Assembly: GCA_026874595.1 (NCBI GenBank)
Contig: CM049315.1
Location: 69,697,916-69,761,915 of the forward strand
DNA: 64,000 nucleotides
Source: Sipunculus nudus
Lineage: Eukaryota > Annelida > Sipuncula > Golfingiida > Sipunculidae
Reading direction: 5' to 3'
The first letter of the stretch is position 1; the number at the start of each line of letters is the position of its first letter. Of the stretch, positions 1 to 35,371 are shown in pieces. A program made the translations under genes and the position numbers. The notes beneath the pieces are model-generated. The model was not told the origin of the DNA, ran no database searches, and saw only the letters and a list, made by a program, of their open reading frames with translations.

Positions 1-1260
1 GGGAGGTAAGAATCATGAGATTTGCATATTCTGGGACTCATTCATGCCAAGTACAGGGCGTGTGCATATATAAGCATATATATTTTTTTTATATTTATCT
101 TCTAGTCGTTAATCATATGCTTATTAATTCTCACAGTATTATTTTTCTTAATTGTGCTGCATGTAAGTTGTTAAACATTCAAATTCCTCTTTGGCAATAA
201 ATGATATCTTATCTTATATGATGACTTGATTATACAAATAGATTTATACACATAAAAGTGGGCAGTTAGTCTGAGAAAGTTCTGATTTATATGTTTGAGT
301 CATTCCTAAAAAATAAATACGATCTAAATAATAATATGATTAATTTATATCATAGATTGCCTTCAGGACATTTAAATGTAATAATATGTTTAGTCCTTTA
401 CTTTTACAAGGTAAATTGGTCTCTAATCACCATTATTTCTTTCTTTCTATCCAGACGTCCATGCCATGGCTTTCCGAAGTCTATGTCCAGTTCATCAGGT
501 TCGTCGTCTGTGAAAGAAAACCCAAGAAGCAGCACGCCAATCGACGGGAGGACAGATATATCTGCTACACCAGATGAGACGCTGTCGTCTGTTGAAATGG
601 CGCCAAACCAGGACGAAACATTGTCGTCTGGCTCTGGCTGTAACAGTTTCCCTTTACCGTCACCAAGGATGCTCTGCCAAGTATTCGTCCACGGTATCGG
701 TTGGGGAACTCAGTGGTCAAACAAGGCAGTGTCTGTTCAGTTCGATGACGGGTCAGAACTCTCACTGCAACCCAACCCCATGCATGGTCATCAAGTACAC
801 GTGTCCAAAAGGAAACGCATAAAGGTGTGTATACTTAATGCCACTTAAACAACATTTTGTATTTTAATGCTACAACATACAAAGTATGTATTCCAAGTGA
901 AACATGTATAAATTTCGGATTTTGATCTGGGTAAGGAGCCTACTTTTTAAACTTTAAATATGTTTTACTTTATAATATTAAATCGGGCTTAGTAGATGTC
1001 ACGAATTTAAAATGATAGTAATTATTAAAGGATAATGAAAATATAAATTTACTCAGAATATAACTTCATGTAATGTTCGGCCGGAGTCTGAGTCGCCAAC
1101 AGGAAAGAAACTGCAGAGGACGGGGGTCCAATGGGACCATGCATGTCCATCGACTGGTAAAGGGCAGCAAGAAATCTACAAATACAGAACCTGTGGAGAC
1201 TGAACAGTGGGAGCCGAGAAACCGAACAGAATAGTGGGATCCAGCAAAAGACTACTTTCA
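1..1260 (+). pseudogene. PLK4-like polo-box unit D, 3' part, truncated by window edge
   Basis: The first five bases match the end of exon 5 of unit C (34181-34186) and are followed by the same GTAAGA donor. Exon 6 runs 455-824 and encodes the Ser-rich linker and PB3 (GIGWGTQWSNK, then FDDGSELSLQ). Compared with unit C it has a 4-base CATG insertion near 780 that shifts the frame. In the original frame a TCA codon has become TAA just before the exon 6 donor. The last exon is missing: the sequence jumps near 1080 from intron 6 to DNA that in unit C lies beyond the stop codon. The rest of this copy lies to the left of the window. With three independent lesions I call it a pseudogene; the open reading frame covering 291-848 is the shifted remnant. 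Confidence 0.85.
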
Positions 1261-2761
1261 GGAAATGAGCACATGCACATGGACTGATTCAAAGCCTATG
1301 GAGAGAGTAATATGCATGTTACTCATTGTCTTATGATGATGATGATGATAAAAAACCGAGGTTACGGGCGAACGTAGTGTTTATTTGCTGTAAAAGTCCT
1401 TCAAGTTCTACCGCCATTTATTACAATAACAGTCAAATGTTTAAAAGTAATATCAGGCATTTGACTAAATTTGCTATACATGTGCGGCTTGCAGGCACAT
1501 AAAATATGTTAACGTATTGGTGATAAATATTGGAAATAAAGTTATGTGTATACAGGAGTTTAATGATTCTATCGCATGTATTGAGAGAGGGAAAGAGAGA
1601 GATAGAGGGAGAGTGAGAGAGAAATACGTACCTAAGATAGACAAAAAGACAGAGACAACAGACAACTCTTCTCTTTAATAAGAAGCCACAGCCCCATAAA
1701 CTTTCAAAGGTAAACGTCTTGGCTTGACTGAATCCCCCTTGACCCCTGACCCTGAAACGATCATTTCACAACCTTCTCCATATATCGGTAATAGATTGGT
1801 GAATATCAAGTGGACGAAAGAAAATTATGAACAAAATGATACATTTTTACATTCAGTCGATATGTGTGCACAGATAGCTTTGGTATATTGAGTATATATT
1901 TAGTCGATACAACGGATAATTGAATAGATACCAGTAATGATTTAAATTGTGTTGGTGAATTCGTTTTGCTTATGTTTACTTACTTTTGCGTTACCTATAC
2001 CTGTGTCGTCTCTTGATTATCTTGTCCATTTAGCTGTGCTCCCCCTCCCCCGACAGAAGGTACCCGGTCCCTGTATGCAAATAAATGATTATTAAATAAG
2101 ATCCGTTTATTTTAATAAAAGTATCTATATATGTTACACTAATATAACAGACCATCAATCTAAATTTAAATGAAGCTATTTTTTTATCATATTTCGCCGT
2201 GCCTTTTCTGTAGTTTTCCTCACTTGAAATTCTACTTCGAAATCCAGGTGGCAGTCAGGTGGTCACCAAACAAGAATGGTTTCACTCCCAAGGATTATAA
2301 TCAAAGGAGGTGTTGGTGAGGCTAACAAGGAGAAACAAGATTCGACTTCACAGGGAGTTAAACGAAACCATTGGTTCAAGTATTTTCTAATTTAATATCC
2401 AGAGAGGTCCTTGCAAAATCTTGATTTTGATATCTTTAAATTATTTTATGGCGATATAACTAATTAAATGGTAGGCCACATCAGCAACCTGTATGTGCTA
2501 CTAGTCTATCACCAGAGTCCACCACTAGGTTAATTAAATCATCATATTACGGTGAACAAGGTCTTCTAGGAAAGGAAAACAACTGCACATTTAATAAATC
2601 TCATCTGTTCTTACTATTTGTAACTCTGTTGTGGTAATCAGTATAGTCCATTCCATTTAAACCAGACAGCTTCACCCAATGAGTGCAACAAGATGTTGCA
2701 CGAAACTACGTAGTAGTAAAACTGTCTGAAAAAAACTTGATCACTGTATATTTATACAATG

Positions 2762-2763
<2 letters not shown>

Positions 2764-2805
<42 letters not shown>
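2764..2805. repeat. (TA)n microsatellite
   Basis: About 42 bases of pure TA dinucleotide repeat. The short open frame on the minus strand here (a run of Tyr-Ile) is an artefact of the repeat. Confidence 0.95.
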
Positions 2806-2807
<2 letters not shown>

Positions 2808-3299
2808 AATGTGTGTGTACGTTTTAAGCAACAGTCACAAAGGTTAACGAATCTGCCGACACGAATATTGATAGATATAATCATCCTGAAATGGAGAGAA
2901 TACAGAAAATAACATATATAGCAGAAGCAAGACAAATATTTAAATATATCTATTACAGAAACTATCCTTGACTGACTAGCCGACGGGGTTTACTTTCATC
3001 GTCCTTCGGAAGGGTGGGGGATGGGGGGACATGAATACACCTCTACGAGGACGAAACAAATTGTTGAACTTGCAATGTGAAAACGACAGGCGGAAGGTAG
3101 TAAGATATGGTATTCACGACGTATCGTTCATTAATATCAATCTGCCGAACATTTGTGAAGCCTAAAAATGACGTCATAAGTTCATCACAATCAGTTACGT
3201 CCGAACGTTCAGCTTGCACGGTGCTTAGCAACGTCATTGTATACAGCAGGTACCTAAACAAACCAATGGTCATATGGGGGGGGGGCTGTAATCACGAGA

Positions 3300-6200
3300 A
3301 TTAGTTTATTGGCTATCGGTTGCGACACTGATATTAAAATTGTCTCTGTTTAGCTTATGTTTCGTTAAGGTCGACAAAATAAATTAACTTTCACAGCTGA
3401 AGCTGTGGGTTGCATGCAAAAGGAAAGAAAGATTTATGGAATTTCAACATAAACATTCTTTTTCTTATTGCTATATGAAACGGAATTAAAATGTATTGTC
3501 GTTCTTACTTATTGAATAATGACGCCATGCAAAATCAGTTAGTTGCCCAATCTTATTTCAATACACAAGGTCTGGTTTGTAATAAAATTATTCTTTAAGT
3601 ATTCCTCTTTGTTTGCAAATCCAGTTCTGAATCTTAATAGAAAGCCTGCATATTAGGGTGCATATTAAAGATTTTATTTACTTTAGGGTACTAAAACGCT
3701 ATAATATAATATATAAAATATGACAGCTCGCGGACTTGGAACCTCTGGTCTATTCTGGACTTGGTTAAGAAATAATTTATCATGAATTTTTTTGTCAGAA
3801 AGCCCGCAGAAGATAATGTATGTTTCAGATAAATCATGGAGGGGCGAGCGTACGTCATTTGCGGTCGGGTTGAGAGTACTGATTCTGAGATCCACCTGTA
3901 TGTCTTAGCTGCGTGGCCGTGTTCCTACTTTACCCACATGCATTATTTTTCATTAAACCGAAGCGCATCCAGGGGAGGGGTCAAGGGGGTTTGGAACCCC
4001 TCCCTTTTTTTTCATTCGCTGAAAGCTTTTTTTAAGGTTTTCAGACAACTATTTGCGGCCTGGCCCCACCCCCTTTTTTTTCCTATATTCTGGATCCGCC
4101 CCTGTTAACGGTAATGAGACAGGCTTGTGTCTTAAAGATATTTATCGATGTATAGGTGGCGCATTGTGTCTATACTTTTACACAAGCCTTTGTAGAGGTG
4201 GGAACAGCAAGGAACAGGTTAAAAATTCACATGTCAGGTCGGGGAAAATCTAAATGTTGCTACATATTTGTGATCTGAGCCTGACAGACACATTACCGGG
4301 ATATCATTCAAAACCAGAGAGTAGTCAGGACCACAGATTCCGCCAAGATCTTCATCAAACTGTGCTGAGTTTTTCATAGAAAATGTGTTGCACGGTTTAC
4401 CAACTTAACTGCATGGTTGGATCTCAGATCAGTTTTAGAACAATGGCGCCAAAGTAAATGACCATGGGTCTCGGGTGGGATAGAGAAATCTCATGGTGGT
4501 GCTCAGGATCGTCTTCAAAAGTTAAAAGATTGTTTCTTGTGTTTCACCCTATTCCTATTTTGTATTGAAGATGCTGATATTGACAGAACAAACAAATAAC
4601 GAACCAGGGAAGTAAAACATGAATATATATATATATACATCCTAAGTCTGTGAATATTAGCGGCCACATATGCAAGTCCACAGTTAAATAACCTTTGACA
4701 AAAATCGTAAAGACTGCGTGAAAGGTAACGGAGAAAGAAGGGCGGGGGGGATTTCATGTATAAACAAGCTGTATGTAATGCTTTTTGACCCCGCTATTAT
4801 CATATACATGTATAAATATTTTTGAGAGACCACTTAGTTTTCATGTGATAGCTTTGTCTGTTCGAATCTACCCTATTCATAATACCCTGAACAAAAATTT
4901 CATATTCTTTTATCATGCAAGTCCTTTTAATACGTCACGCCCATAGGAGGCTGGATGGATGAGTGAGTTGAAAAGGGGGGTCATTATGGATATCATAATA
5001 CAAGAAATGAATTATCCGGGTCATAATACCCTGAAATCCATGTATTGGTTTTCCCTCTATGTCAAATCTTAAAGTAATTATAGTATTTTTGTTGGCGATC
5101 GTTTACATCCCAAAACAGACGAATAATCCATATTAAAATGATGCTGATGGCAATATGATACTGCTGGTAGCCTGCAGCCGTATACCTAAGATATGCTGAT
5201 AAATTTGTGCCAAGACCTGACATATTATTTGCAAACACATACAACTTTTACATTTGCGATCGAACAAGGTGCCATTGTTTTTAAATGAACTCTAATAATG
5301 CTAATTTAATTCCATCAAACTATATGAAATTTCGTTTGAGTTGCAAATATCTGGCCTCGCGTGACATAACTGAAAATCAAAAGCGTGGATAACGGCAGTT
5401 TCGCTCTTATTGTTTCATTATGAAGGTCATACATAGAAAGGGTTTTATTTCTTATAACGTGTATCAGCTGTTTTCCAGGACTTAGATCATCTACATCTGT
5501 ACTTAAGTGTATATTTTTTAATTCCATCTGGAGAATGCTATGGAACACACGTACAAACCAAATCCTGTGTTCAGTATATTCATTTTTTTTTTCAAATGGC
5601 AAAACAGCTACTTTGAAAATGGTGGTCATTATGCCTACAATACCAAAACATGATTTCTCTGGGTCACAATACTCAAGAATCCATATATTGGATGACCCTC
5701 TATGTCAAATGTTAAGGTAATTATGATAATTTTGCTATTTTCTTAATATTTTGGAGGCCATTTTGTTTGATGCTAATTTGCTAAATTGCCCAAAGCTGAC
5801 AGCTGGCCAACCAACATATTTTTCACACCTGATATTACGCTCCTGAGGCAGAGGAAATCTTGCGCTTCTAAAGAAGCTATTGATTTTCCCGCTGCCTGCT
5901 TTGATTGTTTATGATGCACATGGGCCTGTCTGCTGAAAAAAACTGCTGAAGTGACTACCAGCTAACCAAATGAAAGTCAACAAACACTCGGCAGGCATCA
6001 GGCTCCGCCCAGAAACCTCGCGTTGGGCCATTCTCTCTGAGCCTATGGCCTGTTCAAACGGTCGCCGAGGCAATGAGCTGTCACTCAAAGCGAAATGAAC
6101 AACATTGGCTTCGTGTATTCCTCGCTTGGTTGGTAAACCGTTTTGTCTTCCAGCACAGGGTCTCATCTGATTGGACTAAATACAGTGCACCCCTCTGGTG

Positions 6201-8840
6201 TAGAGATTCAGGATACAAGGTCAAAACAAACAGCGCTTACGACATAGGTAGTTGGCCTATGTGTAAAGCGCTGTGTAAAGAGCGTAACCTAATATGTGGG
6301 TTAACAAAATCCACCAAAAAATTAAAAAAAAAAAAAAAAATGAGTAATGTCCCAATAACTAGATTAGCTGTTGTAAAACGAAAGTTAACATCTTATATTA
6401 GTAAATATTTAGTAATATAAAAATCAGGGAATAATGAAACAGCAAGCGTAACCTCTTTCCGAGAGCATAAAGACACATCATTCGACCTGAAACTAAAACA
6501 CCAATCTTTTGTAAATTCAAAGCCACAGCTTGGTTTTTTTTTCTTTATTTGTCGTTTTAGTTGTTCTTTATGTTATTTTGTGCAGGCGTACATAATTATA
6601 TCTCCACCGGGAAGCATATTGCATTTGTCGTCGTTAGTTGGTTTGGTTTTTTGGTTGCTTAGCAACTTAACTGAAAAAGTAATTTCAGTTTGTTTAAATA
6701 ATTGATAATTATCATGAGATGATAATTGTGAGAGCAGTGTGTTTATCCGATCGCATGGTAGCAGCCTTTCATCGGCATATAGGGACCTCGTGCTGGCCCA
6801 AACAGCTGAGCTTTGATGCGACCATAGAGTCGGTGACCTGTGACACTCGGTCCATTTGGCTTGCATTGATATATTTCCTTTATAACACAAACCTGGCGGA
6901 GGTATGCATGTAGTCTCTGACCACTTTTCTGTTTTTAATTTCAAATGATCTTCATATGTACACATACTTTGTTTACATTTTTGCCATAGATATTGTGTAT
7001 CCTCAACGATCAGACGGAGTGAAACCGTGAATTAAAAAAAAAAACAGTGTTTACGTTAAAGATGTGACGACAGGGCCTTATCATATACACCGTATGTTAT
7101 TATGCTGTCAATTATTTTGCACAAAATTTTACGAAAGTACTTTTCATTATTCCGTAAGATGCTGAATAAAAATTGTTGTTTACCATATGATGATTATTTT
7201 TTGTTTAATCTTTTTTTGAGGGAAAATTAAGGAAGAACATAAAAAAACTGTAGCTGTTTCGAGTGTATGCTCACCATATATTTATAATAAACCTAAACTC
7301 AAACTAATATTTGTTATTTTCTCGGATAATGCAACAGCATTTCGAGTAACTTGGTGATGCTTAACGCTGATTGGTACTGTAGTTTTTCAGACATATGAAA
7401 ATTACAGAAATAAACATGGTTTAACTGTTATAATTCTTGATATGCAACTCAAAATATTCTAGAGACTCACAAAATTAATTCTTGAATATTTTAAGCAATT
7501 CTTCACATTCATGTATGGAGTTGACCTTGATTGTAAGTGCATACAGGTGTGTCAAGGCACCTGAAATAAACCATTCGCCCCTTGTCAGTTTCATCGCCAC
7601 AGCTGCTCGTGATCACCATGTCAATATCAATTTCAGACTCTGAGATGTTAATTCCCCTGCCCCCTGTGTCTGAATGCCATTCGTTATGGTTCAATTTATC
7701 TTAAAGATTTTAGTTTTAAATATCTTACACAAATGCTACAGACTTTACCTTTTGTTTGTCAAAATAATGGCTTATCATAATTCTTATGACATAACAACTA
7801 AATAGATAACAAAACCAGTCGAAACTAGGATTCTGCATTTGATATCTAATGAATGCAAGCCTCCGCCATTGACTTATTTGGCCCATTTTCCCAGGTTTAT
7901 TCGTGCATGAGTGACTTTACGTTTATGAATAATATTTGATGACGTTCCTGGATCCGGATCATGGTCAGGATTGACATCAAAATTCAATCGATTTTTCATA
8001 GGCCCATTTCCGAAATGCCCTGACAGTTTATGAAATTCCGTTCAGGATGTCGTGAGTTATGTTGTGAACAAACACACACACACAAACACAGCAACAGGAA
8101 TGAACGCATACCACCCTGGCCAACGTTATTATCAAATAAATAGATAATGCCTGGGATTAGTTTTAGCATTTTGTGAAACATCAGATATCACAGATGCACA
8201 CGAAAAACCAAAAATGCGTACGAAAGAATTTTAGAATGGTTACCTGGTGGCCATCTGAGATTTTTTGTGCTGCCTCTTATGTTCGGTAAGGCAAATCCTT
8301 TTGGTACTAAGAAAACTCATGCTGGAAGACGTTTCATGGTTGCTTGCCAAGGTTGTGTTATATGCCCTATACCGGTGACATTAGATATCTTGACAGTCGT
8401 GAGTATTAATATACTCTCATATGTCAATCAAGTGTTATAAAAGCAGTTTTGCACTGTCATATGAATTTTAATAACTTATTTAAAGCTACCTTTTTCACGG
8501 ATATATTAAGGCTTTTCTTAATTTTCAATGTGTCTCAGCTTTAAATACAGTGTGTTGGGATTAAGCGCTGTACAAAATAAATACATTTATATTCACATTT
8601 TGACTGTTACTTGGTAAATTATTTAGAAGAAATAATTATTATCAATTAATTATTCTTGATGAAAGTTTGGCATGCACAGACACTTGCCTTGGTCAGGTGC
8701 GAACCCAAACTTCATATTTTACTGGCGAACGGCACCGCCAACTTTTTTAGTAAATGATATACGTGATAAACTTTGTGTGTGTTTAAATAAACTCTTTATT
8801 CTAACATCTGTCGCCTGAATCAAATGATAAACAACAGAAA
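3300..8840. other. Intergenic, no supported gene
   Basis: No open frame in this stretch has recognisable domain content, splice structure or a paralogue in the window. It contains a possible MITE remnant at 3960-4110 (CCAGGGGAGGGG near one end, GGATCCGCCCCTG at the other, with pyrimidine-rich interior) and a 120-bp interspersed duplicate (4975-5095 and 5617-5740). A patch at about 7860-8130 resembles 31000-31290 (CCCATTTTCCCAGGTT, then GTTATGTTGTGAAC followed by an AC-rich run). Confidence 0.6.
4975..5740. repeat. Pair of direct repeats about 120 bp long, 640 bp apart
   Basis: 4975-5095 and 5617-5740 share the order GGTCATTATG, then GGGTCATAATACCCTGAA versus GGGTCACAATACTCAAGAA, then TCCATGTATTGG versus TCCATATATTGG, then CCCTCTATGTCAAAT and TTAAGGTAATTAT-like ends. 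This looks like two copies of a dispersed repeat; no coding potential is seen. Confidence 0.65.
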
Positions 8841-8894
8841 TATGCTGAACACTTATTGGCTGCCGTTCGCTCGGAATTTAGGTGTAGCAGTTAT

Positions 8895-9420
8895 AGTTTG
8901 TGCCTTATTAATAGCCAGATTGCTTCATTTGAAGATCTCAAAAATTGAGAATAAAATGCGTAAAAAATTTCGAAAAATACAGGTGGCGCCATAAGTCTGC
9001 AGGAACTGATGAAACACTCATGATCCATATGCTTGCAAATAATCAGTGCGATTATATACATCAGTTATTCAGATACTGGAGCATTTGTATCAATTTTTTA
9101 ATTTTTCTTGGGTAACCTACGAGCCCTATAGCTCGGAGGATATGGGTAACAGAGACCTAATTTCAGGTTCCCATGGAGATTTTCCAAGGACCTCTCTGGA
9201 TGTCAAGAGAGAAGATTCTGGGTCCAATAGTTACAGTTTGTGTTCTGTTAACGGACGACCGTTTAATTTGAAGGTCCCCCCCCAAAAAAAAAAGAAACAA
9301 AAATGCGTAAAATTTCGAAAAACAAAGACGGCGCCATAAGTCTGCAGAAACTGATGAAACACTCCATGATTCATATGCATGCAAAGAATCATGGTGATTA
9401 ATGCATTAGTTATTCAGAGA
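8895..9420. repeat. Tandem duplication, unit about 330 bp
   Basis: 8895-9085 and 9225-9420 are similar: AGTTATAGTTTGTG versus AGTTACAGTTTGTG, AAAATGCGTAAAAAATTTCG versus AAAATGCGTAAAATTTCG, GGCGCCATAAGTCTGCAG in both, CTGATGAAACACTC in both, and a shared GTTATTCAGA end. The second copy runs directly into the PLK4-like exon scrap at 9416. Confidence 0.75.
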
Positions 9421-9584
9421 TGTGATGAAGATCAGCTCTGATGGTCACGTGATCCTAGTCTATCAGCTCCAGTGTGACAATACGACTGTTAGTGACACTC
9501 CAGCCAGCCCTGCAGCACGCTCTGGACGTACAGTCGCGACAGGCTGCCCGAGAAATACTGGAAGAGGTACCAGCATGCGGCAAG
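9416..9584 (+). pseudogene. PLK4-like unit E, isolated exon 3 fragment (cryptic polo box)
   Basis: Similar to the second half of exon 3 in units A, B and C: GTGATGAAGATCAG, then GATGGTCACGTGAT, and near the end TACCAGCATGCGGCAAGGTG with the normal donor position. The frame is broken in the middle: bases are missing where the others encode GSVREYS, so the N- and C-terminal parts are in different frames. There is no exon 4 downstream. Instead, within 20 bases the sequence enters DNA matching the 3' flank of unit A (17505 onward). It is a relic of a unit whose exons 4-7 were deleted. Confidence 0.85.
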
Positions 9585-9589
9585 GTGAT

Positions 9590-10740
9590 TCTCCGACATC
9601 CGCTTTAAATTTTGCACTCAGAGCGACAACTACAATCCAGATTTCATAAGGGAGCTGAAATACGACAGGGGATGTACTCCGAGGTCTGTCTCAAGGCAGG
9701 ATCTGCGGGGAAAGTCTGGTGACCATTAGATCCGTATCATACAAGTAGAAGCCGGAAGAACGGTCCGGGGATGACCGCGCCCTCATCCGTAAATTATAGT
9801 AGGATTTAGATTTAAAGAGGAGCCACACAGACTGCTACACTAGACAGACTCCGTCTTCTTTGGAACTCAAACGGGGATCGAGCAGCGTGAACAGCGAGAC
9901 TCGGGGGGGGGGGGGTCTTAGTGATCTTCTCTCATGTAAATGAAGGGTGACTGTAGTTGAAAACACAACATGGATCAACATGGATAAAAACTGAGCGGGA
10001 CCGCTGTTATGGAATACCATATGTACATACGAAAACTTTGATGGTACAGATGGACCGGCGGCTGTTGTTATGCTCGATCTGTGTTTATTAAAAATGGAAA
10101 ATTTAAAAAGAACGAGATTCTGGTATGTGTCGTTTACAAATATTAGATGTACTTTATACACTTCTAAACATACGCTATATGAATGGTATTCAATGATTAA
10201 TATTTTGAATGATTATTAAAAAAAAGGTTCACCAATTATTTAACTTAAACATTTATTTTTTTTATCCTTTTTTACAATTTATTTTCAATTATGCACGGCA
10301 GAATCTTGCAATGCTAATAAAACGTATGTATGTTGTACTTTTAATGTATTTATGGTAAACTCAAAGATAATATTAACTTTGAGAGAGAGGGGGGGGGGGG
10401 GAAACAAACAGACAGATGGACAGATAAAAGAGGTCTTGGGATATTTTTTTTAAACTCCGACCACTTGAAAAATGTGAATGGACTGTGGGTGTTCACATCG
10501 AAAGCGGCATATGAAGACCTATTTGATGTTGATTATAACAAGATTCAGGGAATATGTTACAAAGATAATGAAATTACGTAAGGAATTCTCGGATGGTTAC
10601 TTTGTTCGCATATTAGACTTGGTAGGTCTTAAGTTTCCTAATGAAATCTCTCTGGAAAGATATTACGGCAGTTGGTGGAACAGTTCTTGTATTAGCAGGC
10701 ACGGTCGGACGAACGGACAGACGGGAAAATATTATTATTA
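9590..10740. repeat. Duplicate of the 3' flank of unit A (17505-18620)
   Basis: Matches 17505-18620 in order: CGACATCCGCTTTA, GACAGGGGATGTACT, GGTGACCATTAGATCCGTAT, GGGGATGACCGCGCCCTCAT, TTTAGATTTAAAGAGGA, GGAATACCATATGTACATAC, a GA-rich patch, TTTGATGTTGATTATAACAA and TTAGACTTG..GGTCTTAAGTTTC. The region is non-coding. It shows that E and A descend from the same unit type. Confidence 0.85.
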
Positions 10741-10741
10741 A

Positions 10742-14251: not shown

Positions 14252-17200
14252 ATGGGTGCTTTCAGCATGGTACGTATCAATTAGAAGATTTTACAATCTT
14301 TCCACATTTATCTCGTTTTATTACATATGCGGAAATTAATTTTACTATAATCAAGAATTTAGCACATAAAATAATAAATATCGTTATTTCTTTTCAGCTC
14401 GATCATCCAAGTGAAGACGACAATACGAAGAATATAGAAGAATGTCAGAATACCCAGTCTACAGGTAATACTGAGAAAGACACCGGGGAGAGTTTTATTC
14501 AGAGTGACCAGAAGAAGGTGAGCGTCAAGTCTCTGACTGAGGTCACAGATGATCACGTGACGGGCTATTGTGCCATTTCTCTTCTGAACACCTCGCGTCT
14601 AAAGCCTACACGTCAGAAAATAAGAAATACAATGGTAAGCGAACAATAAAATCAAAATGGATAAATATCAATATAAGTTCTTTCTTTTTTTTATTTCAAG
14701 ATATAATATTTGAATATATGTAAATGAATTCCGTACAACTTTGTTTTACAATTTTATTCTAAAACAGATGACGATCACAGACGACGGCAGCGTGTACTTG
14801 GAGATCCTCAGAAATAAACAGAACCTGGATACCGTGAGAGCTGTGATGAAGATCAGCCCTGATGGTCACGTGATTCAGGTCTATCAGCCCAAGTGTGACA
14901 ACACGACAGTCAGTGACAGTCCAGCCAGCCCTGCAACAGGCTCAGTCAGGAAGTACAGCCACGACAGGCTGCCCCAGAAACACTGGAAGAAGTACCAGCA
15001 TGCGGCAAGGTGATTATGTTCAAAATAACGATAAAAGAATAAAATTATAGTATATTTAACGGACCTTACATTAAGTTAAGCAAATTTATTTCTTATAGAT
15101 GAATTCGTTTAAAGATGTTTTTCTTTGTGCTTTATGATTCATTTGCTATATAAATTCATTTGTACTTAATGTTACAGATTTGTTGAGCTTGTCAAGTCGA
15201 GAGCACCAAAAGTTACCATGTACACGGACCAGGCCAAGTGTATGCTGATGGAGAACGACAGCTGTGACTTTGAGGCGGCGTTTATGACGGAGCCAAGGTC
15301 CGCTGTAGTCATGACATCACGAGCATCACCTTTGGCGACGGAAGGTCTTTTACATTGGGGTCCGTATCCAGTTACCAACAAATGATTCCAAGAAACCGGA
15401 AGCTGTACCGGTATTCAATGCAGGTAAAACCAAAACAATGTATCAATTATATTTACACAATATGACCATATTTTTATTTTGTATTGAAAGGTTAATTACA
15501 GTTGTTAGAGTTGGAAAACATAAAATATATAGCACAAGATAGCAGGTGAACATTATATGATTTTAAAAAGAGTAAATTTTAATTCTATTGACTGAATATA
15601 AGATTCAATATTTCACAAAATGTAAGAATGGAACTATGAAGTAACGTACTAAACAAATTTTACTCTTTTTCCATCAGTGCCGGGAGAGATGTCTTAAGTT
15701 CGTGCATGTGCTGACCTCTAGTGGGAGAGAAGAAACCATCAGACCAGGCGGACAGTGCTTCCCAGTGGTAATTGGAAGGTGAGTTGATTAACTGATAAAA
15801 TTGTGATTGGGTCGTTTATATCTACATTGACTTCATAAATTCCATCATATATATAAATTAGTTTTTTTTTCACGCTCGCCCTTTTCATTCTTCAAATAAA
15901 GACTTGATTGGTGTACTTTTAGTTAAACCATCATAATTAGGTATTCATTATTTTCTCCTAAAATTGTAGGCGTCCTGGCAGTGATCACATCAGTCATTCA
16001 AAAGGGAAACTGTCACCGATCATAGAAAAATCGTCAAGTCCAGTGTCTTCACCACGAAATAATAACAACACCGAGGCCGCCATGCTTTACCAAACCAGCA
16101 ACGATACTTCGCGTGGCTATCTGGGGCCACATTCTTTGTCACAATTACCCTCTCCAAGAAGTAGCACGCCAGTAGACTGTCCGTCGATTCCGTCTGCCCT
16201 GAGAGAGATGACCGCGCTTGACCAAGATGACCGCGCAGTGCAATCCCAGGTGGCGCTAAGAACCAAACAGTCGTCTGCTGCACCCAGGGACGCGGCGTCT
16301 GCTTCCTTCACGTCAAACCAGGGGACGCCACCAGTTTCACCAACGTCTGTTTCTCCACGCCTCAACGAACGACGGGCCGCGGTGCCAACAATCTTGTGTA
16401 AAATTTTCGTCTCTGGCATTGGCTGGGGAACTAAGTGGTCCAACAAGGAAGTAGTGATCAAGTTCAATGACGGCTCAGAACTGTCTGTCCTACCAGATCC
16501 CAAGGTCATCAAGTACAAGTGTCCTCAAGGATTCCGCGCCAGGTACGTTTAGGCCTTCTAATTAAGCTTATATGTTAGACAAGACGCAGAGTAAAAGAGA
16601 TTAAAAGGAATATTTGTATATTAAATGTCATTTGCCTTTACTTCCCATTGGCCTGAGGGTGGGTCCGAAAGCCGACAGTGCCTGGATACGATATGGTTAC
16701 CTGAATTTATCAAAAAGGTTCATATTTTTTAATCAAACTATCATGCATATTATGAACCGTAAACAGTAAAGATCATTACTGAACATTAAGTTACACAAGA
16801 CTCCAGTGAGACTATGCAAATACAGTACATCCAGGATAGCGAATGTTGTTGATTTCATCACGGTGCTTAGGGCGTTTGACCAGTACACTCCAACGGGCTG
16901 ATACGGAGACACAGGGCCGACATAACTCGTAATAAATAGACCGTTATATATTTCGGCATCTAGTGCGATGTACCGGTATCCGGCTGATAACATGCTTTTA
17001 TCTTGAGATCGGTTAATGAAACAAAATTTCATATATCGGTTAAACACAACAACCTGATACAAGGTTCATTTAAAGTAAAAATGGAACATTAATATGTTAT
17101 AACATGGAACAAAATGTTACTTATATAGCGTTCAATATTGGTTAATGACAAAGTGATGCTAGAGCCGTTATGGTTAATGATTATGATTGCTTGTTTTCGT

Positions 17201-17302
17201 TCCAGTTACACAGAGGAAGACCTTATCCCCTCGGAGGTAAAAGAGAAACTTGATGCGGCGCCAGAGGTCGTTGACAGACTTGAAGCATCGCTGAAGTCTT
17301 GA
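14252..17302 (+). CDS. PLK4-like: PLK4-like polo-box protein, unit A, frameshifted (7 exons, no kinase domain)
   Basis: Exons inferred from GT-AG borders and comparison with unit C: 14252-14269, 14398-14634, 14768-15009, 15178-15423, 15678-15778, 15970-16542, 17206-17302 (TGA). Exon 2 ends with RLKPTRQKIRN, as at the start of the PLK4 cryptic polo box. Exons 3-5 carry PB1-PB2 (YLEILRNKQ, LPQKHWKKYQHAA, KVTMYTDQAKCMLMEND, FPVVIGR). Exon 6 has a long Ser/Thr/Pro-rich linker and PB3 (GIGWGTKWSNKEV, KFNDGSELSV). In PLK4 these domains mediate dimerisation and binding to centriolar CEP152/CEP192 and STIL. There is no kinase domain. Exon 4 is one base short near 15278: GCGTTTATGAC where B and C have GCGTTTTATGAC, which breaks the frame; everything after it is open in the expected frame. 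With that base the gene would encode about 504 aa. It is either a young pseudogene, a polymorphic null or a sequencing error. Confidence 0.85.
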
Positions 17303-20810: not shown

Positions 20811-23800
20811 ATGGGAGTTCAAAATATGGTAAGTGTTTACTTTTTTTTACAAAAAAAAACCTGAACTTTCCTTAAAGCCTAGTTTACAGAACAAAGCGAT
20901 AAATCTATTAAATTATTAAAAGCATACAGATATTGATCATGAAAAAAAAATATTTTAAAATAAATTATATTTAAAGCAGTTTATATAAATTTGAATACAT
21001 TAATCGAAGAGTAGTTTTTCGGTTTACATTTACATAGGGAAAGATTCCGCTGTTTTGATATAATCCCGCAGCCTGTTTTACACCCTTGATACCGTTGATA
21101 ATATATAATTTTATTTATTTCGTTAACAGAAAATAAATGTGTCGGGTTAACTTATGACATAATTATGTACATATACTATTTAAAAACGTGACATCTGAAT
21201 TATTCCATTATATCATACAATCATAATTTTCTTTTTATATTTTATTCAGGTGTCCAGTTACAGCCAGGGAGAAGGGTGTTCCTCCTCAGTGAATGACGTC
21301 TCATATGGTCAATTGTCCGACTCCTCCTCTAACGTCTTTTCGCCTGGAGCCTTTACGTCAGAAAATTCGCAGTCTTGTGGTAAATTCTTGCTTCCATTGC
21401 ATTTTAAATGTAGTAGTGCTAATTAAAAGCCTGTATCTGGCACATTACAAGAGCCTCAGACATTAATCAAATTTTAACTCATTTATCGATATAATATTTG
21501 TAAAATATATGTAGATAGAGGTTTGGTTCTTTATTCAAATTGGAAAAATAAAAACTATAGATAATTGATAAAATGGGATTGTTACTGTGAATCACATCTA
21601 TATATTTACATTTTTTCCCTTTACAGATGACGATCGCAGACGACGGCAGCGTGTACTTGGAGATCCTCAGAACTAAACAGGACCTGGAGATCGTGAGAGA
21701 TGTGATGAAGATCAGCTCTGATGGTCACGTGATCCAAGTCTATCAGCCCCAATGTGAGAACACGACAGTCAGTTAGAGTCCAACCAGACCTGCAGCAGGC
21801 TCCGTCGGGGAGTACAGCTACGACAGGCTGCCTCAGAAATGCTGGAAGAAGTACCAGCATGCGGCAAGATTATTATGTTTAAAATAACGGTAAAAGAATA
21901 CAGTTATAGTATAATTAATCGACCTTACATTAAGTAAAGGATTTCTTTTGTAAATCAATTCGTTAGAAACATTTATTTATTTTCTTTGTGTATTCGGGTT
22001 CACGTGCAATGTAAATTTATTTGTGATCAATGTTTTAGATTTGTTGAACTGGTCAAGTCGAGAACACCAAAAGTGACCATGTACACGGACCAGGCCAATT
22101 GTTTGTTGATGGAGAACGACAACTGTGACTTTGAGGCGGCGTTTTATGACGGCGCTAAGGTCTACAGTAGCTTTGACGTCACAATCATCACTCAGAGTGA
22201 CGGGGGTTCTATCACACTGGAGACTGAAACCAGCTCCCAACAACTGGACACGAAGAACAGGGAGATCTACAGTTATGCGGTGAAGGTAAAATTATAAATT
22301 CATTTAGACTGAACTTGATGATTAATCTTGAACCTTTTGAAATTGCAATATACTTAAAAATGTTCTTCTTTATTAAAAAAATTGACGTAACAATTAAGGG
22401 AATTATATATACATGTTTATTACATATTATTTAATATAGTATTGCATTTGCAAGCTGGTTTAACTTTTCATTTAAAACAATTAAAAAAGGGTGAGCCTGA
22501 ACTTTCTAATCTTTACTTTTTTTATTCTTTCCAGTTTCGACAGAAATGTCTGAACTTCGTCTCCCTGATGACGATGGGGATGATGATGATGATGATAACC
22601 TTTATTTCCTCCAAGAATGAAGATAGACAATAATTTTTTATAATAATTAAACGATGCACTTTTCACGTACAACATTTGGCAAAAAGTCAAGGTCACACCC
22701 GACATAAACATAATGTTAATTTAAAGATGCTAAAACGCCGACTGTTCCCTTAATGTGATTTCTAATGCGTAAATTATTGTTGTCTTCATTGGAGACAAAT
22801 ACTACAAACGGATAATATTAATATACGCAAATCCGGAGTTAATACGCATCCTCAGACTAATCAACTTGTCTCTTTATTGTTGCAGCCGCATTCCTGCCAA
22901 CTGTCCTTCTAATCCGAGGTATAATGCCCTGGCTTCACGTGTTCCGTCTCCTCGGACAGAGTCGTCGAACTTGGAAAAGAAAGCATCACCACAAACCAGT
23001 TGTTCAGCGAGATCATCTTTGTCCTCTAATCCACCTACAAACATGGGGACGTCTCCGGAATCCCCGCCAAACCAGGGGGCGCCACCTTCACCATCGTCTG
23101 CTTCACCTTCGCCAAGCAGTAACAACTGGTCCCTTGCAGAACTAACGGTCCTGTGTAAAATATATTTTCCCGGAATCGGCCTTGGCACTCATTGGTCTAA
23201 CAAGGAAGTGTCTGTCCAGTTCACTGACGGTTCAAAACTTAAACTTAAACCCAGTCCCTTGGTCATCAAGTACACGCGTCCTAATGGACTTTTGGCTAGG
23301 TACGTATATATGCTTTACCCAAATGTACTTCTGTTTGATAACATAACAAACTCTACAATCGACCTTTGACCTTACGCTATTCCCTGCCTTGGAATAGCCG
23401 TGACGTCACGTGAATGCAGGCCGCAATTACGCAGGAGGCGGTCCACTATAATTTAGCAGCGCCAGGACATGGTCCACTGTCTCAAATAGTAGAGAAGATA
23501 TCTCCACAATTCTGACTAAGTCTTGGGTTAAGGTGGACGACTCAAGGCGGTTTTTGTTTTTGGTGAAGTAGGCAGACAATAACTTCAGTGTGACCGATAC
23601 ATGGGCTGGTCAACACAGAATGCAAGGTTGAATGTGTTTATTTTACACAGTATGATCATTGCATTAATGCAGACTTGATTGGCCTACTGAGATGAACATA
23701 ATAAATACGTTATAAAAAAATGTGTCATGTTCTTTATGCGACATTGTATAAGTAACGATTTATGCTTATCCGTACATCCAGCTACATGAAAGAGTACGGT

Positions 23801-27475: not shown

Positions 27476-30400
27476 TTATATTTGCTGCTACGTCATTTGC
27501 TTAAATTTGCGGAAACAAATTCCGTGTGCATGTGAAGTTTAACCTTCTCAGGTCTTATGGTTAAAGTAGGTGTGTTTCAATGTGTCAAACAGCTTCTGGG
27601 CGACTAAATCCTGCATCTTTGCAACTCTAACTCGGAAAACATAGGCGACAGTGATATTAGTCTCATCCGACTGTACACTTCGCTTACATGGTCTTTTTTG
27701 CTCTGTAAATTCTTGTAGCTTTCCTCGGGCCCCTGGGTGCATACCACCAAAGGGTCACAACAGACGATAGAAGGTTATTCGTTGTACATTTGCCTGCCGC
27801 CCATGACCAGTTCCAATTTGCTCTTTGTTGGGGAGAGTTGCCCCTTTAGTAGGGGCGGGTATTAATACTTACTCAATGAGTTAACCCCCTCAACATATGT
27901 ACCTGGTGGAAATAAGTGTGAAAACAAAATTTTTTTTTAAATTTTTAATGTAGTGTAACCCCCCTGTACATGGCCTCTGAAAATTATGAGGTCGTAAAAA
28001 AACATGAAAATCATCATAAATCCAATTCCAATAAGGATACCAGGCTAACAAGGGTTGATTAGTTTATTACTATACCAATATTTTGGTTCCATTGTTTGTG
28101 TATGGACTTTGTCAAGTTCCCCAGAGTACAAAACTGTCAAATAATTTTTTTCTCCTTTTTTGGGGGGTTAATATACCTGTTTATCTTTCTTCAGCCACGT
28201 TTTTACTAGATCTCACATGTGGCTGATTTAAAAAAAAACTGACCTCTGTGTATAATATTAGTCTGATATGACAGAGTTGCACCTGATATTTACTTTGGAC
28301 CTTGACCAGATTTCCATGGTCATAGACTCCATATCTGATTCCCAATTATCACTCAGTTGGGAGCGTGAAGGGAGATTCCAGTGATCGCTAAGAGTGATTG
28401 CAAACTTCTAGTTTTTTTTTTTTTTTTATTTGCGAACATGTGAATCACCATATTTATAATATTTTGGGAAGATATTCCTTTATATAACTAACATTATTTT
28501 GTTTTACTTGGTATTTTTTTCTATATTTTGCTTTTTATTAAAGAAAAAATATATATTTAGGATATATTTTGTCAAAATGTAATGAAAAATCAATATATGC
28601 AAGTAATGATATGCAATTATTATCAAGATTTAAGTTTAATACTTGAAAATTCGCATCAAATAAAAGCAAAATTTAAACATATATTTTGGTAAAAAAAAAC
28701 TTACAAGAATACCTTTCTATCAACAAAAACAACAATTACATAATATAGACGATGTGAGGCGTGTTAACCAAAACTTTCTGTGCTTATCCGTCCAATATGT
28801 GAGATTTCTTTTTAAAATGGCTGAAAATATTTCTGTTAGAATCTTCATGTACATACCTCTCTAAAGTTGTGGTTCACTGATATCTGCATAAAAACAAATT
28901 TTGCTCTTGGGATATAGATATGTTATCACTGTCGTCCGAAATTCACAAAAGCTTGATACATTTATGATGAAATGAATGAAAACAAGATATACAGTTTTAA
29001 TCTCACTCACATAATAAAAACATATGATGTACGTTTAACTTAAACATCTTTGTCAATAAATGTATGATGTTATTGCTAAAGTTAGGAATCTCACTCACAA
29101 ATTGACCATTAAACTTTCATAAAAAAATGTTTAAAGATACTAAATGAACAGATGGTTCTAACGAAGCTAGCACCATCTCTAAAGATATCCAAGATTAACA
29201 TGTGCAACAAATAATAAGAAAATCCATGCAATATTTATGGAGAAATCATGTAAATTTTACTTGGAATAGACAATGAAAAGGGAAATTTCCCATCTGATAT
29301 TCCCTTAATAAGCATTATTTTGCCTAATTTTGTTAAAACTTTGAATGATGACCATAAAATGGGTATGCCGGATGAATTTTGTTTTCAAAGTCAGATAAAT
29401 AACTGCAGAGTTTCAAATGTCAGTTGAATGTAAAATGTGAATCTCTACGTAAATCAAAGAATACTCACTACAAAAAAATATTAATTATAGATGGCTCATG
29501 TGCAAAAGATAAATTTATCTAAGATGGATAAGCATAGCAAATTTCAAAGCAATTAATGGATTAATTATTGAAAATTGGAATTCCTAATAAACTTCAAATG
29601 AAAAAGATTATTGTGACACTTGGGCAAACTATGTTCCAATTTAGGATTGATAACAGAAATGTATATGTATATTATATTTATCATTTTCAATTTATGACCC
29701 TTTAATCAATTCAAGTGCAGCAAGGATTAAGACTCTGATGAAACTGGCTGTCAAGGTGTTTACAATCACATAGCTCATAGATTATAGGTCATTATTATTT
29801 AATTTAAGGTTTCCTACAGGGTTCACCAGGACTTGTTTGGAGGCATGATCTCCCTCAAGAATTATCTTGTACTTTGACCTAGTTTTTTATGTTACCATAT
29901 TTCTTTGCCATATTCTTCAGCTGAAAGAAACAGATTATCATTATTACTTCATACAGACAGAGACCTTCACACAAATAAAACTGGTGTGGGATTTTGTGAG
30001 GGAGATGCTGTCCATTTATTTTATAGTTACAATTTAAAAGGTGTTTCCATCTGCAATGGTATGGGCATCAATTAATACAGGAAAGAAATGTTCCAAAAGG
30101 GCGCCCTGAACCTGTGATTCTTTATCCGTAGCACGTAAAGTCAATATTTACAAGCGGAATATATTTTGTGTATTTTTCTGTTTGAAAGATTTACTATTGT
30201 AAACACATTCACTGCAAGACTAGGCTATTTAACAAAATTATGGACTAACAAATCCATGTCTTCATGATAAATCTTTACAGGAAGGCAGTAATCGTAATAT
30301 GTTAGGCAAATGTAGATTTTGTTGAGCCCATTACTTTTCAGACAGCATTTCCCACATTTCCCAAAATTTTTAACAGCAGTGCGTTGAACATCTTATTCAG

Positions 30401-31230
30401 AGTCTGAAGTTATACGCCACCTTTTATGCAGCAGTATACCAGTATATGTTTTGATAATATCAATATCACATATGACTTTAAAGCTATACGTTATTTCCTG
30501 ATTTGTATGATTTATTCACATTTTGAGGGAAAGCTATGGCCATACACTAATTATGTCAATGAACTATGGTAAAAATACATCAATACCAGTTAATATGATC
30601 ATGTCAGTACATTTGGAACAACTTCAAACAATTTTAAAACCCAATTTATAAAGGAGTTGAAGAGTCTATGAAAAAGACGGAAAAAAATAATATTTTATGC
30701 AAACTTCAGAGGGGGTGTACAGGGGGGTTACACTTGAAAGAAAATTTGGCAAACAATTCTTTTTCAAGGTTTTATACGCAGGTACCTAAATTCAGGGGGT
30801 TAGAGTTTTGGATTTCCCAAATTTGTAAAATATTACCCCTCCATCCCTACCTTTAGTAAACGCGGGATGCCGTCAGAACGGGACGCGAACCCACAACCTT
30901 GTAGTCTTCACACATTCAGAAAGGTTAACACTTTACAGCTAAAAAAGTACATTTTCAGGAATACAGGCCTGTATACAGCCTTGATAAGGGGTACTCCGCA
31001 ATCTGTGTTTCATTCATTAATTTACCCCATTTTCCCAGGTTCATTGGTGCTTAAGATCTCTAGCATTCCCTTATTCTGCCCATATTCCAATGTGCTTAGG
31101 CGACTGCACATTTGTGAATATTCCTGGAAATTATAACCTTAATCGATTGTTCAATTCATGAGGAGGTCTGAGAAAATCCTGCGATTTCGTTTATGATTGA
31201 GCGTGTTATGTTGTGAACTGAAACGTGAAT

Positions 31231-31251
31231 ACACACACACACACACACACA
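31231..31251. repeat. (AC)n microsatellite
   Basis: Ten AC repeats within a patch that also resembles about 8000-8130. Confidence 0.85.
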
Positions 31252-32130
31252 AGAACGGGAAGGAGCGCATACACTCCAGACATAGGAAATTACTCAACGT
31301 TTCTCTGTGGGCTGATAATCAAAAAATCCTACATAAATCAGCTATCTTGCAATAAAAGGGAATGAAAATTAATAACGGCCTTGGCTTAGCCCGCCTCAGT
31401 AATGTACACGTTTATTTACATTAAAATGGAGCGAAATAACAAAACTAACAAAATTACATCTTGTTGTTTCAACTATAAATATTATGAAATGTTGTATATT
31501 TAAAATGGTTGATTTTGACACTTCCCGTCAAAACCACAGAGTATATATTTCGGGGTATAATGAATTTCACTTTCGTAATATATCATCAATGAGAAATGAG
31601 ATGACACCGTATCAACAGATTATACATTCATTGAATAAAAGATACCCTGCATATGATTTTTTTTTAAATATAAAAGTATTGTGAAACAAGTAAAGGTATA
31701 AAGAAGTGTGATAAAGTATAAAAAATATATTTTAAATCTCAATTTTCTAAACTATGAATTAATGTTTGCAATAATACATACACATGTATAGATTATATAA
31801 TCATATTTCAAATCAATATCAAATATAATATTACGTGAAATGATTATAGTACATGAAGACATGAATTAAAACAGGACTGTGTCCTATTTTTTTATTATAC
31901 TGGTTCTTTTAAATAATATATACTATATCATTATTATCATGACTGTCATAGTGATCGTCATGTGACTTAATTAGATATATCACATTTTACTTCCCACTAA
32001 TTACGTCCAGGTTTGCTCCTCCGCCTATACTCGTCCTGGGGTCAGCACTGATTAATATTAATCAAAGTTACTCGACCAGTCACTCCTCGTTGACTCAGGT
32101 GATCACGTGACCTGATTAATCGAACAAGAA

Positions 32131-32188
32131 CGGGCAGGTCAGGGTAGGACGAGGTTAAACACGTTTATTAAGTTTAACATGTATAAAA
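32131..32188 (+). promoter_or_regulatory. Promoter-like block of unit C (conserved box plus TATA)
   Basis: CAGGTC, six bases, GGACGAGGTTAAACACGT at 32135-32164, then TATAAAA at 32182-32188, 96 bases before the ATG. Just upstream lies ATCACGTGACCTGATTAATC (32102-32121), with an E-box and a GATTA-type homeodomain motif. The intact gene carries the best TATA box of the three units. Confidence 0.65.
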
Positions 32189-32283
32189 ACGAAAGTCCAT
32201 CTGTTGTTCTCGATAATTCTGCTACAGCCGTTACAAGGTCAAAATATATCAAGGTCATATCTTAATACCTCAAGGGAAAAAGA

Positions 32284-35200
32284 ATGAAAGTCCAAAATAT
32301 GGTAAAGGCTCTCAGTGATTATGTTTATATAGACTGTGAATTTATTTCAGTTTGGCCATTAAAAGAATCACTATTGTACTTAATTGTTTTAATACAACAT
32401 TTCGGGACTACAAATCCCAGCCAATACACTTACACTTCATTTTCCACCATGAAAACTGATCACAGTTTTTTTATGTCAAATTTAGCTTTAATTCTGAAAT
32501 TAAATACATTAAGAAGAGAAATTAAAAGTGCGTCTAAATTAACGTATAATAATATATAATTTGAGTATACATAATCGCTAGATATGAGTGACTAAACCGA
32601 TATCCGACGCATGTCAAAATACTGGTATCCTAAACTCACTTCAAACCTTCATGTTTTAGGTATACAGTCACAGTCAAGGAGAAGGGCGTTCATCCTCAGC
32701 CGATGACGTCACCAGTGGTCACGTGGTCGGTTGTCCTACTCCTCCTCTCACGTCTTTTCGTCTGAAGCCTTATCGCCAGAAAATACGTAACGTCGTGGTA
32801 AGTTACCGTTATTTATTATTCCAGCGACGAAGATAAACCTAAAGTGACATAATAATTGCAGAATTTAATCTATAACTTTTTTAAATAATACAGTTATTGA
32901 TATCTTTGTGAAACAATTCAAATCAATTGCAGATCAAACTACTAACAGACAACCGAATCAAACCGATAAATAGAAAACTGTGAAATATATAATATTATTA
33001 TGTAGTCCTTCCTTACTTTTCACTTATATTTAACTGAGGAGGGAGGTATATGGTAGGAATTAAATACAAGAGATCACTTATTATTCATTTCCATTCTACA
33101 ACAGATGACGATCACAGACGACTGCAACGTGTACTTGGAGATCCTTAGAACTAAACAGGACCTGGAGATCGTGAGAGAAGTGATGAAGATTAGCCCTGAT
33201 GGTCACGTGATACAGGTCTATCAGCCCAAGTGGGACAACACGACGGTCAGTGACAGTCCAGCAAGCCCTGCAGCAGGCTCCGTCAGGGAGTACAGTCACG
33301 ACAGGCTGCCCCAAAAATATTGGAAAAAGTACCAGCATGCGGCAAGGTAAGTACGGTGATCCTGTGACATTCTTTTTTTTTGTGTTTTCATTTTATATAA
33401 ATCTTGTGTTTTGAAATAGAAAAAAATACTTGTTTTTCAAATTGTTTAACTGTTTTAACCTCCGTTCAACTTATTGAACTGCGTTTACATTTTGCTCCAT
33501 TATATATCATGAAAAATTAAGAATAAGGTATTTGACATGTCGTGAAATATAAGATATTAAGTACAAATTATTAGTCTTTTTTCTCAAAATATAAATTGTT
33601 GTTTCCATTTCTTACAGATTTGTCGAAGTGGTCAAGTCCAAGACTCCAAAAGTGACCATGTACACGGACCAGGCAAAGTGTATGCTGATGGAGAACGACA
33701 ACTATGACTTTCAGGCGGCGTTTTATGACGGAGCCCAGGTCCGTTGTTGTCATGACGTCACGAGCATCACCAAGAGCGACGGGATTTCTGTCAAGTTTGA
33801 TTCTGAATCAGGCTCTGAAAACTTGGATCATAAAACCAGACAACACCTCTCACACGCATTGAAGGTAAATATTCATAAACATATTTTACATCAATTTTAC
33901 ATTAAGATCTTTGTATATTGCACATTCAATTATATTTTATGTGATATATAATAACAGCTATCCAAGAGTGTTTGGTCGTATAGATAAAATAATATTAAAG
34001 AAGGTCAAACATATAAAAAAAAAGACTCAAGGAATTCATGTTGCAAACAAACAGTTTTTGTATTTAAATATCTGTATTATTTCAGTTTCGTCAGAAATGT
34101 TTAGACTTCGTGTACCTGATGACGTCAATGGACGATCTTGAAGGATCAAGATCAGATGTGACCTGCTTCCCTGCAGTCATCGGGAGGTAAGAATCATGAG
34201 ATTTTCGTATTCTGGGAATCATTCATGCCAAGTACAAGGCTTGTGCTTAATAAGCATATATAATGTTTTCATATATATCTTCTAGTCGGTAATCATATTC
34301 TTATTAATTCTCACAGTATTATTTTTTTTAATTGTGCTGCATGTCAGTTGTTAAACATTCAAATTCCTCTTTGGCTATAAATGATATCTTATATAGTGAC
34401 TTTATAAATAGATTTATACACCAAAATGGGGGCCGTTAGTCTGAGAAAGTTCTGATTTATATGTTTGGGTCATTCCTAAAAAAAATAGATAGATCTAAAT
34501 AATAATATGATAAATTTATATGATAGATTGCCTTCAGAACAATTAAATGCAATAATATGTTTAGTCCTTTACTTTTACAAGGTTAATTTGTCTCTAATCA
34601 CCATTATTTCTTTCTATCTATCCAGACGTCCATGCCATGGGATTCCGAAGTCTACGGCCAGTTCATCAGGTTCGTCGTCTGTGAAAGAAAACCTAAGAAG
34701 CAGCACGCCAATCGACGGGAGGACAGATATATCTGCAAAACCAGATGAGACGCTGTCGTCTGTTGAAATGGCGCCAAACCAGGATGAAACATTGTCGTCT
34801 GCCTCTGGCTGTAACAGTTTCCCTTTACCGTCACCAAGGATGCTCTGCCAAGTTAACGTCCCCGGTATCGGCTGGGGAACTCAGTGGTCAAACAAGGAAG
34901 TGTCTGTTCAGTTCGATGACGGGTCAGAACTCTCACTTCAACCCAACCCCATGGTCATCAAGTACACGTGTCCAAAAGGAAACGCATCAAGGTGTGTATA
35001 CTTAATGCCACTTGAACAACTGAATGGTAAAATCAAGAAAGGGACATTTTTAATGCAACAAAATACAAAGTATGAATAAATTCCGAATTTTGGTCTGGGT
35101 AAGGGTACTTTTTAAACTTTAAATAAGTTTTATTTTATCATATTAAATCAGGCTTAGTAGAAGTCACGATTTTTTTAAATCATAGTAACAAATAAAGAAT

Positions 35201-35371
35201 AATGAAAATATAAATTTACTCAGAATATAACTTTCTGACAGTATTTTATTTGTTTGTGTTTGTACATATTTCAGTTTCAAGGAAAATGATCATATCCCTT
35301 TAAAAGTGAGACAGAAAATGGACGCTCTACCAGCAGTTCTTCACAAACTGAGAGAAGCACAGACGCCTTGA
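32284..35371 (+). CDS. PLK4-like: Kinase-less PLK4-like polo-box protein, unit C, intact (7 exons, 402 aa)
   Basis: Exons with GT-AG borders and matching phases: 32284-32301, 32660-32797, 33105-33346, 33618-33864, 34086-34186, 34626-34991, 35275-35371 (TGA). The total is 1209 bases with no stop. Residues 40-50 are RLKPYRQKIRN, which in PLK4 leads into the cryptic polo box. Residues about 53-250 are PB1-PB2 (LEILRTKQDLEIVREVMKIS, LPQKYWKKYQHAA, FVEVVKSKTPKVTMYTDQAK, AAFYDGAQV, FPAVIGR). Residues 250-320 are a Ser-rich acidic linker with a repeated DETLSS. Residues about 321-390 are PB3 (GIGWGTQWSNKEV, FDDGSELSLQ, then a helix with LKVRQKMDALPAVL). Full PLK4 has an N-terminal kinase; here the gene starts from its own short exon and TATA promoter and has no kinase or DSGxxS-type degron. 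It could bind PLK4 partners or PLK4 itself at centrioles without phosphorylating; that role is inference. Confidence 0.9.

Follow-up and report, generated by a model that had tools for sequence, protein, structure and literature searches.

Our sequence analysis indicates that the genome of Sipunculus nudus, the one genome examined, holds a genuine multigene family of kinase-free proteins derived from the polo-like kinase PLK4, and that this family is in continuing decay, by birth and death of its members. The conclusion is drawn from four properties taken together, namely domains of the PLK4 type, absence of the kinase, first exons of the family's own, and purifying selection. PLK4 is the enzyme that controls centriole copying, and its dose decides the number of centrioles; both kinase targeting and partner binding reside in its C-terminal half. 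A genome with one PLK4 kinase locus, one STIL locus and a multiplied polo-box half constitutes a natural experiment on kinase-free polo boxes, and makes testable both the tuning of centriole number by decoys and the tolerance of PLK4 to many competitors for the same partners. In the open-licence literature, no kinase-free PLK4 polo-box family was found.

The window (the whole stretch of 64,000 nucleotides that was analysed, C10:69697916-69761915) lies inside a cluster of PLK4 C-terminal units on contig C10 and contains five units on the same strand, D, E, A, B and C, as the first-pass annotation had described (Table 1). That annotation also held that they carry only the C-terminal part of PLK4. 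They are indeed PLK4-type and kinase-free, but E is a fragment of the PB1 exon and D starts outside the window, its exons 1-4, which contain a stop codon, lying at -1846 to -291 in window numbering. Unit B shows further damage, with shifts in exons 2 and 4 and a decayed exon 5. Since D has a stop and a shift, A a frameshift, and B stops and shifts, and E is a fragment, one of the five window units is intact. With four of the five broken, the description "array of genes" holds for the whole cluster, in which 14 of the 33 units read are complete, and not for the window.

Table 1 Features of the kinase-free PLK4-type units in the window (window numbering)
Feature	Position	Strand	Description
Unit D, 3' part (subfamily C)	1..848	+	end of exon 5, PB3 exon and flank; frameshift at ~786; broken
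Unit E	9410..9590 (approx.)	+	PB1-exon fragment with frameshift; remainder of gene not recognised
Unit A (subfamily A)	14252..17290	+	exon 1 MGAFSM at 14252-14269; six introns detected; PB2 exon frameshifted at ~15278; broken
Unit B (subfamily B)	20811..23303	+	exon 1 MGVQNM at 20811-20828; in-frame TAG at 21774; broken
Unit C	32284..35371	+	sole intact window unit; 7 exons, 402 aa, PB1-PB2, linker and PB3; TGA stop at 35369-35371
Unit C upstream stretch	31970..32283	+	alignable to C-type copies of both C10 and C16; TATAAAA at 32182
Unit C exon 1	32284..32301	+	MKVQNM, then GT donor; shared by other C-type copies
Unit C exon 2	32660..32797	+	RLKPYRQK stretch at its end
Unit C exon 3	33105..33346	+	most of PB1; exon homogenised between subfamilies
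Unit C exon 4	33618..33864	+	most of PB2
Unit C exon 5	34086..34186	+	end of PB1-PB2 module
Unit C exon 6	34626..34991	+	linker and PB3 sheet
Unit C exon 7	35275..35371	+	PB3 helix and stop
Homogenised PB1 exon	33105-33346, 14768-15009, ~21627-21865	+	silent sites alike; other exons and introns diverged

Protein searches with the product of unit C bore out its assignment to PLK4. The best matches among solved structures (PDB) were to PLK4 PB1-PB2 (1.6e-44) and PLK4 PB3 (3.2e-12), and the Pfam profiles Plk4_PB1 and Plk4_PB2 (PF18190, PF18409) matched at 3.3e-32 and 2.5e-29, far above cut-off. Two other profiles remained below their cut-offs, POLO_box (19.2 bits, cut-off 23) and C5orf34_C (19.1 bits, cut-off 27). 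Polo boxes of the PLK1/2/3/5 type were rejected on this pattern; genome-wide, the POLO_box profile, which is of the PLK1/2/3 kind, matched on contigs C14 and C4 only. The precedent first proposed, PLK5, is a real polo-box-only protein (PMC7113694), but the family in the window belongs with PLK4. Four of the C-type introns match PLK4 in position and phase, and the intron before PB1 is missing from PLK4. PLK4 retrocopies were likewise rejected, as each of 16 intact copies has six introns, four of them at PLK4 positions.

A complete PLK4 gene, expected to lie elsewhere in the genome, was located as a single minus-strand locus near C10:70114-70121 kb, some 350 kb past the window and on the strand opposite to the window units. 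It contains the kinase motifs VAIK, HRDL, DFGL and GTPNY together with the PB1-PB2 module and PB3. When its kinase part was used as the query, 84 matches resulted (150 of 294 first-look candidates scored); five were PLK4's own exons, and none of the 84 fell inside the arrays, the window included. The window was also free of kinase motifs, as had been noted, and the 150 kb of C10:69996001-70146000 outside the PLK4 locus gave only isolated short motif hits. Because the complete PLK4 is a separate locus, the units are not pieces of full kinases, in agreement with the first reading; full kinases cut by the window were rejected, there being one kinase locus only, apart from the units. The STIL_N profile matched three stretches at one locus only, on C4, and the SAS-6_N profile gave no match in a search of short exons that had no control. 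Egg_lysin and molluscan haemocyanin likewise had no match, in searches whose controls also stayed silent.

We then consider the extent of the family. Across the genome (1.43 Gb, 153 contigs), the Plk4_PB1 profile yielded at least 48 matches, 42 on C10 and 6 on C16, and the Plk4_PB2 profile at least 50 (43 and 7, respectively). PLK4 itself excluded, PLK4 C-terminal units, with a content of PB1-PB2, linker and PB3, occupy at least 51 places, 47 with PB1 and 4 with PB2 only; fragment E is additional. The units on C10 span 68.45-70.04 Mb, minus-strand ones first and plus-strand ones after, and those on C16 lie at 58.97-59.03 Mb, plus one at 39.6 Mb.

Part of this number may reflect very recent events. 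Eight pairs of matches on C10 are separated by two near-constant offsets (~393.0 and 473.7-473.9 kb), blocks of units are repeated (68.59-68.63 against 68.98-69.02 Mb, and 68.83-68.93 against 69.31-69.40 Mb), and the two locus pairs that were read are 99.6% and 99.9% identical across 3.3 kb. The repeated blocks may represent recent segmental duplication or unmerged haplotypes, and given the near-identical pairs and constant offsets the count of units is possibly inflated by about eight through recent or assembly duplication. It is highly improbable, nevertheless, that unmerged haplotypes in the assembly account for a large share of the copies: the eight pairs and their offsets favour this explanation, but it covers only about 8 of the 51 units, the remainder differ far beyond the level of alleles, and the family comprises three subfamilies on two chromosomes.

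Other sequences were observed in the window and in the assembly. Pieces of a LINE-type retroelement, with endonuclease-like and reverse transcriptase reading frames, lie at 38865-42586 of the window (minus strand), and a fragment of a retroelement polyprotein with an RNase H domain lies at 42813-43205 (plus strand). Exons at 50513-52758 (minus strand) match a PAN domain, barely above cut-off, and, weakly, the F5/8 type C domain; they likely belong to a gene for a secreted lectin-like protein within the array. The assembly, moreover, seems to hold a bacterial companion, perhaps as several strains or pieces. Of 11 COX1 matches, a weak one is on C5 and nine near-equal ones are on eight contigs (C60, C61, C62, C66, C72, C74, C75 and C89); the two that were read, on C61 and C123, are both bacterial in type, and the relatives of the gene on C61, a contig of 2.17 Mb, are bacterial and at most 58% identical among the best 80 of 282.

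Thirty-three units were read as DNA, comprising 32 of the 51 places and fragment E; these are the ones that were retrieved, not a random sample. Fourteen are complete genes, with start, seven exons, stop and no defect. The first ATG of exon 1 is missing in c69917491 and c68475943m, which keep an in-frame ATG at the end of the exon, and no defect was seen in c69021155m and c69560466m over partial coverage. Fifteen units are broken, including c69386906m and four window units (D, E, A and B); c69935363 was scored as broken because neither exon 1 nor exon 2 was recognised, over a stretch that stops short of its 3' end. With a disrupted frame or relaxed selection as the mark of an unprocessed pseudogene, 15 of the 33 units look like pseudogenes, 14 do not, and four stand in between. 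One broken unit, c69386906m (C10:69383801-69388657), is a close relative of unit C whose frame is open to exon 6; exon 7, encoding the PB3 helix, was not found, and sequence from downstream of exon 7 comes next, which points to a deletion.

Gene models were made with a small custom aligner, whose results are approximate for the variable linker and for decayed copies (E, B, c70042229 and C16_39612189). All 106 introns in the 18 unbroken copies have GT-AG borders, a pattern partly built in, since the aligner permits only GT or GC donors and AG acceptors. Neither the selection counts nor the residue counts include the two partially covered copies, c69021155m and c69560466m; the codon comparisons omit E, c69935363 and c68597750m, and c69021155m is absent from the exon comparison too.

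Three subfamilies can be distinguished, each with its own six-codon exon 1, MGAFSM in A, MGVQNM in B and MKV[QLK]NM in C. The first-pass annotation had credited three window units with a first exon of their own and a promoter-like block. The exons are present in A, B and C, while the blocks amount to conserved stretches upstream, in which visual inspection picked out AT-rich boxes; these resemble a TATA box in units A and C and less so in unit B. The conserved stretches are putative promoters. In the B-type pair c70015920/c69929903, identity is 0.93 over the 250 upstream bases and 0.73-0.89 in the introns. Between unit C and two C16 copies, identity is 0.74-0.75 upstream, with 43% gaps, 0.68-0.74 in intron 1 and 0.53-0.66 in the other introns, so in that comparison the upstream stretch is no better conserved than intron 1.

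The intact copies appear to be constrained at the protein level. A codon model fitted to 16 intact copies over 302 codons (PB1-PB2 and PB3) gave an omega of 0.331 (lnL -5099.5); on the same tree, setting omega to 1 and kappa to 2 gave an lnL of -5206.2, a loss of 107 log units. These fits place the 16 intact copies under purifying selection, and an array of pseudogenes alone was rejected on the omega of this intact set. Median pairwise omega was 0.26 among 47 intact pairs (dS 0.05-0.5) and 0.32 among 72 intact-broken pairs. Broken-copy medians reached 0.49 in D and 0.52 in B, with 0.33 in A and 0.47 in c70001360 (one pair each); the remaining eight broken copies had values of 0.22-0.33, not clearly different from the intact ones, as is expected if their breakage is recent.

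We consider it very improbable that the units are functionless, decaying partial duplications whose open frames belong to recent copies still unbroken. Such decay would agree with the breakage of 15 of 33 units (four of five in the window), with C10 blocks up to 99.9% identical, and with the pairwise omega of most broken copies, not clearly apart from that of intact pairs. For the intact copies, however, it is contradicted by the fitted omega and the log units lost at omega 1. Nor does it agree with the more diverged comparisons: pairs of C with C16 and C with B (dS 0.41-0.68) have omega of 0.20-0.23, and unit C and the B-type copy c70015920 have kept their frames although their introns are only 0.48-0.51 identical (exons, 0.63-0.90).

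The PB1 exon follows a different course from the rest of the gene. At 4-fold-degenerate sites of exon 3, differences between the C10 subfamilies A, B and C are 0.11-0.13, compared with 0.13 within subfamilies and with 0.35-0.92 between subfamilies in the other five exon stretches. The shared stretch stops about 30 bases into the introns. Trees made without exon 3 separate the subfamilies, whereas exon 3 alone gives a compressed, partly mixed tree; the nearest exon-3 neighbour is in another subfamily for 3 of 29 copies, against 0 of 29 for the remaining sequence. With only three such copies, exchange does not appear to be constant. Exon 3 of the C16 copies differs from that of the C10 subfamilies by 0.20-0.24, and between C and C16 exon 3 is no lower than the other exons (0.18-0.29). 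The simplest reading of this homogenisation would be gene conversion of one exon; it may instead reflect selection on the DNA letters themselves.

Residues with known roles in PLK4 were compared across the copies, with positions taken from the literature. The ten PB3 positions through which human PLK4 contacts STIL (PMC4530586) are hydrophobic in 160 of 160 cells (16 copies), against 372 of 1152 for the other PB3 positions; some of them also pack the fold, so this conservation fits binding and is not proof of it. The four phospho-acceptor positions of the cryptic polo box, CPB (PMC6823436, PMC10914751), carry S or T in every one of the 16 copies. The CPB of the copies has a pI of 8.2-9.5, compared with 8.85 for the genome's own PLK4 and 9.1 given for human PLK4 (PMC10914751). 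K711 and N717 are kept, and Y705 is M both in the copies and in the own PLK4. V758, one of four PB2-tip positions that matter for clustering of human PLK4, is not kept, being S, F or Y. The degron motif DSGxx[ST] was found in none of 18 unbroken copies, while the own PLK4 has DSGCDS. PB1, PB2 and PB3 of the copies are only 47-60% identical to those of the own PLK4, and the linker and PB2 vary most between copies.

As the simplest history, we infer one founder, a kinase-less derivative of PLK4, followed by amplification through tandem and segmental duplication; C10 carries the three subfamilies, in the region of the complete PLK4, and C16 an offshoot. In the reading that we judge most likely, tentatively and at somewhat short of an even chance, the products of this founder-amplified family would be kinase-free partners or decoys of PLK4 that restrain PLK4-STIL assembly; the kept interface residues and phospho-acceptors, the CPB pI and the absent degron lead us to it. 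The PB1-PB2 module would dock on receptors of the Cep152/Cep192 type and might pair with PLK4, PB3 would bind STIL, and PLK4 may phosphorylate the copies at the kept sites. Having neither kinase nor degron, the copies are predicted to be stable proteins that restrain or buffer PLK4-STIL assembly, thereby setting the number of centrioles or basal bodies in their cells of expression. The earlier suggestion that such proteins compete with or anchor PLK4 is plausible and agrees with the kept interface residues.

The family could also be real and constrained, with its polo boxes recruited to another scaffold or process and not to centriolar PLK4 regulation. PLK5 and KKT20 illustrate that kinase-free polo boxes can take other jobs (PMC7113694, PMC4821238), and the variable linker and PB2 and the altered V758 point the same way. 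The STIL-facing residues, the phospho-acceptors and the basic CPB are all kept, however, and we regard this possibility as rather unlikely. A further alternative has the opposite outcome: the products might pair with PLK4, shield it from trans-autophosphorylation and degradation, and so raise the number of centrioles. PLK4 works as a dimer, trans-autophosphorylation of its degron precedes its degradation, and a kinase-dead form is able to pair with wild-type PLK4 (PMC10914751, PMC7431843); the copies keep the PB1-PB2 module without kinase and degron. Only about half of their PB1-PB2 residues are identical to the own PLK4, however, and pairing is a prediction, which leaves such protection improbable in our estimate, although the present evidence does not tell restraint of PLK4 apart from its protection.

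Returning to the favoured role as partners or decoys, a more specific version, which we hold to be unlikely and offer as speculation, treats the copies as fast-turning kinase-free decoys. Conversion of PB1 would then reflect a partner shared by all copies, and the diverging PB2, linker and PB3 would reflect partners of each subfamily; centriole or basal-body number would be set by tissue or in gametes, perhaps in a conflict over centriole inheritance.

Among known systems, the family is closest to PLK4 (SAK, ZYG-1) itself, with which it shares the order of PB1-PB2 cryptic polo box and PB3, intron positions, STIL-facing residues and phospho-acceptors, and from which it differs in the absence of kinase and degron motif, in its own first exon and one extra intron, and in its many copies. 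PLK5 is PLK2/3-like, with two canonical polo boxes; it is a single gene, not derived from PLK4, and has no PB3 of the PLK4 kind. Its human form nonetheless resembles the family in being a polo-box protein that lacks a kinase domain (PMC7113694). Kinetoplastid KKT20 also lacks a kinase; it is a divergent polo-box protein for which descent from a polo-like kinase has been proposed. It is, however, a trypanosome kinetochore protein with a Cys-rich region (PMC4821238), very distant, and neither a PLK4 tail nor an array. Lineage-specific duplication of polo kinases, with some copies partial, is also described for Drosophila pseudoobscura and Daphnia pulex (PMC11708218, PMC2680839); the Drosophila pseudoobscura copy, however, keeps its kinase, and the partial copies of Daphnia pulex are of the PLK1 type and were judged to be pseudogenes or remnants.
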